A stretch of 64,000 bases of DNA. Source: Pseudoflavitalea sp. G-6-1-2 (GTDB taxonomy: Bacteria > Bacteroidota > Bacteroidia > Chitinophagales > Chitinophagaceae). Every line of letters starts with the position of its first letter. Within the stretch, counting starts at the first letter, position 1. The stretch covers positions 1,984,001-2,048,000 of the forward strand of contig NZ_JABBGB010000001.1 of NCBI RefSeq assembly GCF_012927185.1. The letters run 5' to 3'. Positions 36,810-39,972 of the stretch are shown one piece after another. Under the pieces are notes generated by a model. It did not search any database. It had not been told where the DNA came from and saw only the letters and a program-made list of their open reading frames with translations. The position numbers and the translations under genes are program-made.

Positions 36810-36868
36810 TAAAAGTTTTTTAACAAGATAGTCCACCCGCTCTGTAGGAATTGTCAGTTATTTCCTAT

Positions 36869-36876
36869 TATATTTG
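36869..36876 (+). promoter_or_regulatory. -7 promoter box of the cysteine operon
   Basis: TATATTTG matches TAnnTTTG. A transcript starting about 36883 would begin roughly 13 bases before the Cys-rich leader peptide. The -33 element is not clear (TTG at 36851-36853 is 15 bases away, a little close). Confidence 0.5.
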
Positions 36877-36895
36877 TAGAGAAATGAATTAACCG

Positions 36896-36991
36896 ATGCT
36901 GAATACTCACACAAATAAATCTTGTTGTTGCTGTTGTTGTAAAACACACGCCAGGGTTATTTGGGTGGGCTGTAGCCTTGGATTAAGTTAG
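36896..36991 (+). CDS. Cysteine leader peptide (attenuator ORF) with six consecutive Cys codons
   Basis: A 31-codon open frame (ATG 36896-36898, TAG 36989-36991). The peptide includes NKSCCCCCCKTHA, with six Cys codons at 36923-36940 (five TGT, one TGC), and another Cys near the end. It precedes a terminator (37020-37047) and a cysteine biosynthesis operon. Stalling of the ribosome on the Cys run when charged tRNA-Cys is scarce would free the segment GGTGGGCT (36964-36971) to pair with the 5' arm of the terminator and allow read-through. The codon run, its place after a promoter box, and the competing pairings are all visible; the mechanism is inferred by analogy to his/trp/ilv leaders. Confidence 0.85.
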   Translation: MLNTHTNKSCCCCCCKTHARVIWVGCSLGLS

Positions 36992-37019
36992 TGCAAAATA
37001 TATACGCATCAACATATTG

Positions 37020-37047
37020 AGCTCCACCGATGGTGGGGCTTTTTTTT
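37020..37047 (+). terminator. Attenuator terminator of the cysteine operon
   Basis: AGCTCCACC (37020-37028) and GGTGGGGCT (37032-37040) pair (nine pairs, one G-U) around GAT, followed by a run of T. The 5' arm can alternatively pair with GGTGGGCT at 36964-36971 (eight pairs with T37023 bulged), inside the leader ORF. The terminator lies 51 bases before the first gene of the operon. Confidence 0.85.
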
Positions 37048-37098
37048 GTGCCCTCCCGTCTGATCCGACCCTCACTCATAACAACAAAAATTGCTGAT

Positions 37099-38046
37099 AT
37101 GTCTGTTACAACAGCCGGAACAACGTCAGAGCGCTCGCTGCTTGACTCTGTACAACAACTTGGGAACCAGATAGGGCGCACGCCGCTTCATGAGATTACG
37201 CAGCTCTTCAATAAAACCGGCGTAAAGTTATACGCCAAGAAAGAATGGGAGCAGTTATCGGGAAGCGTAAAAGCCAGAGCGGCTTACAATATCTTCAAAC
37301 ATGCCATCGAACATGGACAACTCTCCCGAAAGATCTCACTGCTCGATGCCACCAGCGGAAATACCGGCATCGCCTACGCGAAGATCGGCCACCTGCTGAA
37401 TATCCCCGTTACACTTTTTCTTCCGGAGAATGCAAGCAAGGAAAGGAAAGAAATTCTGCAGTCGCTTGGCGCCAGAATAGTGTTCACATCGCGCTTTGAA
37501 GGAACCGATGGCGCACAGGCCGCAGCGCTGGAACTGGCCACCAGCAAGCCTTCGGAATACTTCTACGCAGATCAGTACAAGAATCCCAATAACTGGAAAG
37601 CGCATTATCACGGCACAGCTCTTGAAATCAAAGAAGCATTGCCATCCCTCACGCATTTTGTATCAGCCCTCGGCACTACCGGAACCTTTGTAGGAACGGG
37701 CCGCAGACTGAAAGAACTCGACCCTGCGGTTCAATTGATCTCACTCCAGCCCGATAATCCATTGCATGGACTGGAAGGGTGGAAACATCTCGAAACCGCC
37801 CTCGTGCCCGGTATTTACGACCCAACTGTGGCCGATGAAAACCATGAAGTAGGAACCGAAGAAGCATGGAGCATCATGCGCGATGCCTGGAAATACGAAG
37901 GCCTGCAACTCAGTCCCAGTGCGGCCGCGAATCTCGCCGGCGCCATCCGCGTAGCGGAGAAACTGGAAAGCGGCACGGTAGTAACCATCTTCCCCGACAA
38001 TGCAGACAAATACAGTGAAGTAGTTTCTAAACTCAACATAGTATGA
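37099..38046 (+). CDS. cysM: CysM-type PLP cysteine synthase (sulfur-carrier-dependent type likely)
   Basis: A 315-residue beta-family PLP enzyme; the ATG at 37099 (MSVTTAGTTSERS) is preferred because an upstream frame start would lie within the terminator hairpin. The PLP lysine is Lys58 in QLSGSVKARAA; TSGNTGIAYA is the substrate loop and SALGTTGTFVGTGRRLKE the phosphate-binding loop. NPNNWKAHYHGTALEIKEALPSLTHFV and the general layout recall mycobacterial CysM, which uses thiocarboxylated CysO as sulfur donor. The gene overlaps the JAMM peptidase gene by four bases and is followed by a sulfur carrier and its activating enzyme, which supports this chemistry over free sulfide. It is expected to be controlled by the upstream Cys attenuator. 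Confidence 0.85.
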   Translation: MSVTTAGTTSERSLLDSVQQLGNQIGRTPLHEITQLFNKTGVKLYAKKEWEQLSGSVKARAAYNIFKHAIEHGQLSRKISLLDATSGNTGIAYAKIGHLLNIPVTLFLPENASKERKEILQSLGARIVFTSRFEGTDGAQAAALELATSKPSEYFYADQYKNPNNWKAHYHGTALEIKEALPSLTHFVSALGTTGTFVGTGRRLKELDPAVQLISLQPDNPLHGLEGWKHLETALVPGIYDPTVADENHEVGTEEAWSIMRDAWKYEGLQLSPSAAANLAGAIRVAEKLESGTVVTIFPDNADKYSEVVSKLNIV

Positions 38047-38483
38047 TCATCATAGACACACAAGCCAGAGCAGCATTGCTCAAAGATGCAGTAGCCGCCT
38101 TCCCCGACGAATGTTGCGGTTTCCTCTTCGGCAAAGAGGACGAAAACGGCCTTCGTGCCATCACAGAAATTCAGGTAGTAAACAATGCGAAAGAAGGCGA
38201 TAAACGCCGCCGCTTTGTAATTGCACCACTCGATTATATCCGTGCAGAAGAATATGCAGATGAAAATCAGTTGCAGTTGCTGGGCGTGTATCATTCGCAT
38301 CCGAACCATCCTGCCATTCCTTCGGAACACGACAGGGTAGCGGCACAGCCCTGGTTCAGTTACATCATCGTTTCGGTACTCGATGGAAAGCCCGATGCGC
38401 TTCGTTCCTGGAGGCTCAACGACGACAGTCGATTCGAAGAAGAAAACGTTGGCATCGTAGCCAATTCATATACAAATTCATAA
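38043..38483 (+). CDS. mec: JAMM/M67-type metallopeptidase (Mec-like, releases cysteine from the carrier)
   Basis: A 146-residue zinc peptidase. The complete JAMM motif is visible: Glu23 (PDECCGFLFG), then H84-S-H86-P, six residues, S94-x-x-D97. In mycobacteria the Mec enzyme hydrolyses the CysO-cysteine adduct to release cysteine and the carrier. In the related Qbs and Hcy systems JAMM enzymes trim residues after the carrier Gly-Gly. Either or both jobs are possible here, because the carrier encoded next ends in Gly-Gly-Val-Ala. The start overlaps the cysM stop (ATGA), indicating translational coupling. Confidence 0.9.
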   Translation: MIIIDTQARAALLKDAVAAFPDECCGFLFGKEDENGLRAITEIQVVNNAKEGDKRRRFVIAPLDYIRAEEYADENQLQLLGVYHSHPNHPAIPSEHDRVAAQPWFSYIIVSVLDGKPDALRSWRLNDDSRFEEENVGIVANSYTNS

Positions 38484-38500
38484 ATCAATAAATAACAACT

Positions 38501-38779
38501 ATGGCAACAGTGATTATTCCCACTCCGCTGCGCAAGTTCACCAATAATACCGCCAGACTGGAAGTGACAGCAGATACCATCGACAAAACAGTGAACGAAC
38601 TCACACTGAACTTCCCTGATCTGAAGAAACACCTGCTCGATGAACAAGGACAGATCCGTTCTTTCGTGAACATCTTCGTTGGCAACGACGATATCAGGAA
38701 CCTGCAACAGGGACAAACTGCCGTGAAAGCCGATACCGTTATCAGTATCGTACCAGCCATTGCCGGTGGTGTGGCATAA
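38501..38779 (+). CDS. cysO: MoaD/ThiS-like sulfur carrier protein (CysO-like) ending GG-VA
   Basis: A 92-residue ubiquitin-fold protein. MATVIIPTPLRKFTNN begins the fold, DKTVNELTLNFPDLKKHLLDEQG is the helix, and VNIFVGNDDIR and VKADTVISIVPAIAGG complete it. Activation needs a free C-terminal Gly-Gly for adenylation and thiocarboxylation, but here Val91-Ala92 follow Gly89-Gly90. A processing step is therefore expected, most simply by the neighbouring JAMM peptidase. It would carry sulfur from the MoeB-rhodanese protein to the CysM-like synthase. It lies 17 bases after the peptidase gene. Confidence 0.9.
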   Translation: MATVIIPTPLRKFTNNTARLEVTADTIDKTVNELTLNFPDLKKHLLDEQGQIRSFVNIFVGNDDIRNLQQGQTAVKADTVISIVPAIAGGVA

Positions 38780-38808: not shown

Positions 38809-39972
38809 ATGAGCAACAATAACTCAGTAACTTTTTCTAAAGAGGAACTGGCCAGGTACAACCGGCACATCATTATCCCTGAATTTGGATTGGAGGCGCA
38901 ACAGAAACTGAAGGCTGCGAAAGTGCTGATCGTAGGATCGGGCGGCCTGGGAAGTCCGGCCCTGCTGTATCTTGCGGCTGCAGGCGTTGGAACCATCGGC
39001 ATCGTAGATTTCGATGTGGTAGACGACAGCAACCTGCAACGTCAGGTATTGTTTGGAGTGGAAGCCATCGGTAAACCCAAAGTAGAAGAAGCGAAAAAGA
39101 GACTCGAAGCGCTGAACCCGCATATCAAAATCATTCTGCACAATACACAGCTCACTTCACAGAATGCATTGGAGATTCTGAAAGATTATGATGTGGTGGC
39201 AGACGGAACAGATAATTTCCCTACGCGTTATCTCGTGAACGATGCCACTGTATTGCTCGGCATTCCGAATGTATTTGCATCCATCTTTCAGTTCGAGGGG
39301 CAGGTGTCTGTTTTCAATCAGCGCAATGAGAAAGGAGAGTTGGGGCCCAACTACCGCGATCTCTATCCAACACCGCCACCGCCCGGACTGGTGCCCAGTT
39401 GCGCCGAAGGCGGCGTGTTAGGCGTATTGCCCGGCATCATCGGAAGTTTGCAGGCGCTCGAAACCATCAAGGTGATCACCGGAGTGGGAGATACGCTCAA
39501 CGGAAGATTCTATCACTTCGATGCACTCACATTCGAGAGTCGCACTTTCAATATCTCGCGCAGAGATGATAACCCCATCAATGGCAAGAATCCCACCATC
39601 ACTGCACTCATCGATTACGAGCAGTTCTGCGGAGTGAAAGCCGTTGAGAAACCCATCAAAGAAATTACTCCTGAAGAGTTGTACAATTTACAGGTGAAGG
39701 GTGAAGCCTATCAGATCATCGATGTACGTGAGCAGAGTGAGTATGATATCGTGAACATCGGTGCAGAGCTGATTCCGCTGAGTACTGTTTCTGCGAATGC
39801 CGATCGCATCAGCAGAGACCAGAAAGTGATTGTGCATTGTAAGATGGGAGGCCGTAGTGCCAAAGCCATCCGGGAGCTGGAGGAGAAATTCGGTTTCGAT
39901 AATTTATATAATCTTAAAGGAGGCATTCTGGCCTGGATCGATCAGGTTCAGCCGGAGCTGACGAAATACTGA
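38809..39972 (+). CDS. moeB: MoeB/ThiF-type adenylyltransferase fused to a rhodanese domain
   Basis: A 387-residue E1-like enzyme. The nucleotide loop is VGSGGLGSPALLYLA (42-56), RQVLFG and DGTDNFPTRY are further family motifs, and the crossover-type segment is PSCAEGGVLGVLPG. The C-terminal rhodanese domain (about 283-385) has the active-site loop HCKMGGRS with Cys344, and IIDVREQSEYD. The first half would adenylate the carrier C terminus; the rhodanese half would deliver persulfide sulfur to form the thiocarboxylate, as MoeZ does in mycobacteria. It ends the operon. It may also serve molybdopterin or thiamine carriers encoded elsewhere. Confidence 0.9.
   Translation: MSNNNSVTFSKEELARYNRHIIIPEFGLEAQQKLKAAKVLIVGSGGLGSPALLYLAAAGVGTIGIVDFDVVDDSNLQRQVLFGVEAIGKPKVEEAKKRLEALNPHIKIILHNTQLTSQNALEILKDYDVVADGTDNFPTRYLVNDATVLLGIPNVFASIFQFEGQVSVFNQRNEKGELGPNYRDLYPTPPPPGLVPSCAEGGVLGVLPGIIGSLQALETIKVITGVGDTLNGRFYHFDALTFESRTFNISRRDDNPINGKNPTITALIDYEQFCGVKAVEKPIKEITPEELYNLQVKGEAYQIIDVREQSEYDIVNIGAELIPLSTVSANADRISRDQKVIVHCKMGGRSAKAIRELEEKFGFDNLYNLKGGILAWIDQVQPELTKY

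Follow-up and report, generated by a model that had tools for sequence, protein, structure and literature searches.

A candidate cysteine-sensing transcription attenuator upstream of a cysM-mec-cysO-moeB operon in Chitinophagaceae

The cysM operon and its leader region

The window analysed here is a 64,000 bp stretch of the genome of Pseudoflavitalea sp. G-6-1-2. Its forward strand, on which all window features described below lie, includes a run of four genes that encode a cysM-like cysteine synthase (PALP; 37099-38046), a mec-like JAB protease (38043-38483), a cysO-like ThiS/MoaD sulfur carrier with the C-terminus GGVA (38501-38779) and a moeB/moeZ-like ThiF-rhodanese activating enzyme (38809-39972). 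Profile matches were to PALP/CysM, Prok-JAB, ThiS and ThiF-rhodanese, respectively. As no NCBIfam equivalog cut-off was reached by these proteins, with only a MoeB subfamily model passed (285 versus 266 bits), the names cysM, mec, cysO and moeB are assigned by homology. The closest CysM in a scan of named sequences is that of Pseudoflavitalea rhizosphaerae (84%), and the window genome is of the Chitinophagaceae type.

The available part of PMC3227635 describes a mycobacterial CysO pathway in which CysM, Mec, CysO and MoeZ produce cysteine via a CysO thiocarboxylate. The window operon corresponds to the same four activities but, unlike the mycobacterial pathway as presented in that part, has the homologues of all four in one gene run behind a terminator-type Cys leader. 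CysO C-termini were parsed in 76 loci, including the window and other phyla; one to three residues follow GG in 45 and the protein ends at GG in 10, while 15 were classed as other, some of them misparsed. From these ends, it looks as if many CysO homologues are made as precursors.

Upstream of cysM, the sequence TATATTTG (36869-36876) fits TAnnTTTG, which we take to be the Bacteroidota -7 consensus and on that basis call a promoter box. Relatives have TATATTTG or close variants at the equivalent position. A possible -33 TTG (36851-36853) is separated from the box by 15 bases, presumably less than the consensus spacer. A promoter scanner that models only sigma-70 made no call at the TATATTTG site. 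The box is followed by an ORF of 31 codons plus stop (36896-36991; translation MLNTHTNKSCCCCCCKTHARVIWVGCSLGLS) that includes six adjacent Cys codons (36923-36940), also present in relatives and the proposed sensor, and a seventh at 36971-36973. The run and the stop codon are 48 nt apart. The short ORF thus has consecutive codons for the amino acid that the operon downstream would supply.

The remaining elements are pairing segments. Segment 1 (36906-36920), just 5' of the Cys run, is able to pair with segment 2 and could serve as an anti-antiterminator. Segment 2 is the candidate antiterminator arm GGTGGGCT (36964-36971), which lies within the leader ORF and in the loop of a possible local hairpin, GGTTA/TAGCC (36955-36977). 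Segment 3 (37019-37028) is the 5' arm of an intrinsic terminator (3:4; 37019-37049) located between the leader ORF and the first gene, and consisting of a hairpin (37019-37041) with an energy of -15.4 kcal/mol followed by a T run. GGTGGGCT can form 8 bp with AGCTCCACC, with one bulge. The promoter box, Cys ORF, GGTGGGCT, terminator and cysM operon are found in the expected order. A preliminary description of this DNA had listed the same elements, with a 31-codon Cys6 ORF, and each was recovered in its place. Its spacing of GGTGGGCT, which starts 24 bases beyond the end of the Cys run and finishes 18 bases short of the stop codon, also agrees with a direct reading.

Conservation of the leader and terminator

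Five consecutive TGY triplets are not rare in themselves: the 6.1-Mb genome contains 43 overlapping matches on both strands, and such tracts are the antisense of poly-Gln codons. Among 25 distinct tracts examined, the window tract is the only one with both an ATG-started ORF and a six-T run within 170 nt. Chance antisense of poly-Gln was rejected as the source of the Cys tract, as the 24 other tracts lack this combination and conservation excludes it.

CysM loci were collected from a scan of named sequences (32 loci), from 394 genomes of the phylum (41 genomes, E≤1e-70) and from 244 genomes of the family (20 genomes, E≤1e-90), with the window genome counted in both genome sets. The genome sets contributed 53 stretches, and 79 loci were left after removal of repeated upstream regions and of L030, which has 15 nt upstream. 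A locus was classed as an operon locus if mec and cysO were on the cysM strand, and a Cys leader was defined as an ORF with ≥4 Cys in nine residues within 330 nt. Of the 63 deduplicated operon loci, which are not independent as several share a genus, 54 have a short Cys-dense ORF before cysM, as do all five other genomes of the window's genus that were sampled. Such an ORF was found in 0/9 CysM-like loci without mec and cysO, and in 0/7 loci from other phyla, although four of these seven have mec and cysO. In controls, the same search returned 2/79 antisense regions and 6/1,580 shuffles. Because the leader accompanies the operon (54/63 versus 0/9 and 0/7), we conclude that the Cys leader before cysM is not due to chance.

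Nine operon loci were missed by this search. A wider search found a CCC leader in three of them (L020, L026 and L107), and L108 has a Cys-rich frame by eye. No Cys leader was found in the other five (L019, L085, L094, L096 and L100). L026 is on a contig labelled as a gammaproteobacterial MAG, and has the operon preceded by a short Cys leader and a terminator; either horizontal transfer or mis-binning would account for it.

Across the leaders, the longest Cys run varies from three to eight and interruptions are tolerated, as in CCCTCCC and CRCWCRCC. This bears on the idea that the poly-Cys nascent chain itself senses thiol redox state or a metal, with stalling independent of tRNA charging. The unusual chemistry of six or more neighbouring Cys residues would suit such a role, but a run of varying length with interruptions fits the counting of codons better than a fixed peptide motif, and we give a nascent-chain sensor scarcely any credence.

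An intrinsic terminator was detected in 46 of 53 distinct leaders, compared with 20/1,060 shuffles. Homologues without the Cys run or the terminator, which the preliminary description had named as evidence that would count against it, were looked for in the same loci; most operon loci keep the former (54/63) and most distinct leaders the latter (46/53). The terminator finder returned none in the remaining seven distinct leaders (L087-L092 and L111); L096, judged not to be a leader, was excluded from the count. In an alignment of 20 Chitinophagaceae rows, 99.4% of cells in the terminator stem are paired and four pairs have two-sided changes, a result equalled in 0/500 shuffles; the covariation that the preliminary description had proposed to look for is therefore present in the terminator. 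We rejected the reading in which the hairpin does no more than terminate an upstream SMR gene, as it is kept with cysM across clades.

Two variants of the arrangement were seen. In the genus that includes L087-L092 (g133), the cysM leaders have the Cys run near the stop codon and no intrinsic terminator was found, representing another leader type at the same operon. In Splendidivirga (L022), the Cys leader is separated from cysM by what by eye are two tandem hairpins, of which the second has a T run.

When a family RNA model, built from sequences that include some of the cysM sites, was used to search the 244 family genomes, 95 returned matches at E≤0.01. The 17 best matches are at cysM and, with L172, account for 18 of the 20 family genomes that have cysM. 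Twelve further model loci were read. Of these, L170 is a Cys leader, L176 and L182 are Trp leaders, and the others resemble unrelated hairpins by eye, although L174 may have a Trp leader on the opposite strand.

Pairing between the leader and the terminator

In the family alignment, 97.5% of antiterminator cells are paired, but the arm is nearly invariant and carries no covariation (327/500 shuffles). The antiterminator covariation that the preliminary description had proposed to look for is thus not seen within the family; between clades, the pairing is genome-specific. With 18 hand-picked clade representatives permuted within GC classes, the mean energy of each representative's own 2:3 pairing is -17.9 versus -14.7 kcal/mol for permuted pairs, and 0/20,000 permutations were as good. 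The corresponding figures for 3'-arm and reversed-arm controls are 723/20,000 and 8,474/20,000. Leader and terminator differ together between clades: ACCGAAGcGGCT is paired with AGCCCTTCGGT in Saprospiraceae, AAGTGGGAGGaGCCT with GGGCCTTTCCACTT in Splendidivirga, where the arm was taken manually from the first of the two tandem hairpins, and GGGAAGGCCTT with AGGGCCTTTCT in the MAG labelled gammaproteobacterial. L113, L097 and L021 run counter to the trend. In an earlier swap test with automatic grouping, which merged most clades into five groups, 35 to 115 of 5,000 permutations were as good. For the window alone, shuffles pair almost as well (p 0.05; z -1.1), and for many leaders of Chitinophagaceae, including that of the window, a test by shuffling within one genome is weak.

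Complementarity between the sequences that flank the Cys run on either side (1:2), with the Cys codons left out, is also genome-specific, with 3/20,000 permutations as good and 6,061/20,000 for the reversed control. A 1:2 helix as in trp is therefore possible on sequence grounds, though the exact helix of the window has 55.5% of cells paired in the family and no covariation. The local hairpin at 36955-36977 has 93% of cells paired, a percentage reached by 37/500 shuffles, and covariation supports it weakly.

The arm begins a median of 20 nt after the Cys run (46 pairs). The front edge of a stalled ribosome's footprint is less than 20 nt past the run, and the arm would therefore lie beyond it. 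The distance from arm to stop codon varies widely in relatives (median 13.5 nt). The preliminary description had been concerned that the arm of the window, ending 18 bases before the stop codon, might not be masked by a terminating ribosome; the spacing stands, and possible 1:2 pairing eases the concern.

The window was then considered under nested folding. In the absence of a ribosome, 1:2 (P=0.79) and 3:4 are predicted to form, and with the terminator complete the probability of 3:4 is 1.00 in each of the eight states folded. Before the 3' arm is made, and with the whole 5' side blocked, 2:3 is predicted for a stall at Cys6 (P=0.94) and hardly at all for stalls at Cys1-Cys5 (P=0.02-0.05); at Cys1 and Cys3 the competitor is a local hairpin, with the arm mostly in its loop. 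If only a 30-nt footprint is blocked, 2:3 has P=0.00-0.02 at all six Cys positions, and at Cys6 its value is 0.00 with 1:2 re-formed (P=0.79). With the ribosome at the stop codon 2:3 is 0.59, the opposite of what the model expects. The earlier claim that the arm stays free on stalling consequently holds for Cys6 with the 5' side blocked, and fails for Cys1-Cys5 and for Cys6 with a 30-nt footprint. Exclusion between the antiterminator arm and the terminator is thus indicated by the clade-specific complementarity, while folding of the window mostly disfavours arm pairing. As nested folding is mostly without the antiterminator, the switch, if it works as proposed, would be kinetic or pseudoknotted, and a pseudoknot between the hairpin loop and the terminator arm is possible.

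Read together, the elements look like a classical ribosome-driven switch that would turn the operon on when cysteine is short. RNA polymerase would start right after TATATTTG, and a ribosome would enter the 31-codon leader. With Cys-tRNA plentiful, the ribosome would pass through the Cys run, and segment 2 (GGTGGGCT) would be covered by the moving ribosome or later re-paired with segment 1. With segment 2 occupied, the 3:4 terminator would form and transcription would end before cysM. With Cys-tRNA scarce, the ribosome would stall in the Cys run and mask segment 1, leaving segment 2 to pair with newly made segment 3. This would block the terminator, and cysM-mec-cysO-moeB would be transcribed. 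We infer translation of the leader, stalling on uncharged tRNA-Cys, control of read-through, and formation of 2:3 either by kinetics or in a pseudoknot that involves the local hairpin.

Control might instead be exerted at cysM translation, with stalling exposing the cysM start and the hairpin of little weight as a terminator. Mycobacterial cysteine genes are described as controlled by translation attenuation in the available part of PMC13236596, the six g133 loci keep a cysM Cys leader without an intrinsic terminator, and nested folding supports 2:3 in the window weakly. A terminator that lies between leader and gene in most distinct leaders, with a stem that covaries in the family, and a leader that matches the terminator 5' arm clade by clade argue against it, and we regard control at translation as unlikely. 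The element is, with good probability, a transcription attenuator of the trp/his type that is ribosome-mediated and specific for cysteine.

Other cysteine leaders and a shared promoter motif

A second Cys leader is found in the window's own genome. The cysH sulfate-assimilation operon (G000:C1:234153-234866, reverse strand; loci L216 and L218, with relatives L219-L247) has a leader ORF, MLSMPHIIKHNSCCCCNACYSC, 72 nt upstream of cysH. The cysH gene is present in 148 of the 244 family genomes, and in 21 of the best 30 family cysH loci an ORF with Cys codons at its stop lies upstream, compared with 0/30 antisense regions and 0/600 shuffles. A Cys codon directly adjoins the stop in 19 of these 21 leaders, C exceeds G in the stretch after the stop in 20, and the terminator finder returned none in any (0/21). 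This C-rich, G-poor stretch would suit a Rho-loading site.

Further leaders were seen in the family. L170 (genus g7), the next RNA-model match after the 17 best, encodes MYNPSSICCCMCCCISLRGRKLYCN and has a terminator before what by eye are SUMT- and CysJ-like ORFs; the leaders of L183 and L184, from the same genus, are related to it. In L185, L186 and L191, leaders ending in CCLCCC or CCACCC at the stop precede SUMT- or cysH-like ORFs. The Trp leaders of L176 and L182 (WWW or WW) have terminators and lie upstream of a TrpE-like ORF by eye.

Comparison of the two promoters revealed an operator-like motif, AGTCYAC-N7-GTRGRAAT, at both cysM (window 36830-36851) and the cysH operon (G000:C1:235062-235083, reverse strand). 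The genome has no other exact match, though the motif was defined by eye from these promoters and its presence there is partly circular. A third site with one mismatch (G000:C1:1366673) is just 5' of an ORF that appears thioredoxin-like by eye. We treat the motif as a lead to a shared regulator site. A transcription factor at such an operator could itself set the cysteine response, with the leader adding constitutive partial termination, and the motif is found within two mismatches in 12 of 46 cysM and 14 of 30 cysH upstream regions. However, the other 34 cysM leaders have no match at that level and still keep the Cys leader, and at one mismatch the genome has three matches versus two for a reversed-pattern control. 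As a factor would also leave the Cys run and the genome-specific 2:3 pairing unexplained, we think it very unlikely to be the whole account; it may act in addition to the proposed attenuator.

Taken jointly, these observations would be consistent with a two-mode cysteine regulon working through leader peptides in Chitinophagaceae, a reading to which we give even odds. In it, the CysO-pathway operon would be under a Cys-run leader with an intrinsic terminator, and cysH-cysD-cysN...cysJ under a leader with Cys codons abutting the stop and no terminator. The terminator-less cysH leader and its C-rich stretch would fit tnaC-like Rho-dependent attenuation, and one operator at both promoters would let initiation as well as elongation follow cysteine supply.

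Relationship to known attenuators

An Rfam scan of 601 bases returned five matches at E≤5, none at the gathering score (Phe_leader scored 17.3 versus 55 bits), and a known Rfam leader, riboswitch or T-box was rejected for that region. Actinobacterial poly-Cys leader ORFs were reportedly treated by Canestrari in 2020. In the actinobacterial cys leaders covered by the available part of Seliverstov 2005 (PMC1262725), the Cys codons are close to the stop and there is no conserved terminator hairpin. The window leader resembles these in that cysteine genes are preceded by a short ORF containing a Cys run, but, unlike them, its run ends well before the stop (48 nt) and an intrinsic terminator follows, so that it does not belong to the actinobacterial type; the cysH-type leader of the same genome is closer to the leaders described in that part of PMC1262725. 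Mycobacterial cys leaders are presented as translation attenuators in the part of PMC13236596 available.

Within the phylum, the available part of PMC9723704 gives candidate leader peptides that precede amino-acid operons of Flavobacterium psychrophilum, for which attenuation was inferred as it is here; unlike the window element, the candidates named in that part do not include cysteine. For Bacteroides thetaiotaomicron, the available part of PMC7366714 mentions sORFs reminiscent of leader peptides. Among the literature matches listed, none describes a cysteine attenuator in Bacteroidota, and a prior description may exist.

The cysteine leaders previously described in the parts of the sources available are from Actinobacteria and lack a clear terminator. 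If the proposed attenuator is real, a terminator-type cysteine attenuator would be present across much of Bacteroidota, and ribosome-mediated attenuation there would extend to cysteine. It would also offer a natural read-out of Cys-tRNA charging, and terminator-type and terminator-less leaders sensing the same amino acid would be paired in one cell.

Classical leader-peptide transcription attenuators are those of trp, his, ilv, phe and thr. The window element shares with them a short ORF with codons for the product, mutually exclusive antiterminator and terminator arms, and a possible 1:2 anti-antiterminator, and differs in that it would sense cysteine and has a Bacteroidota promoter. We therefore file it as a cysteine-specific variant of this known attenuator type.
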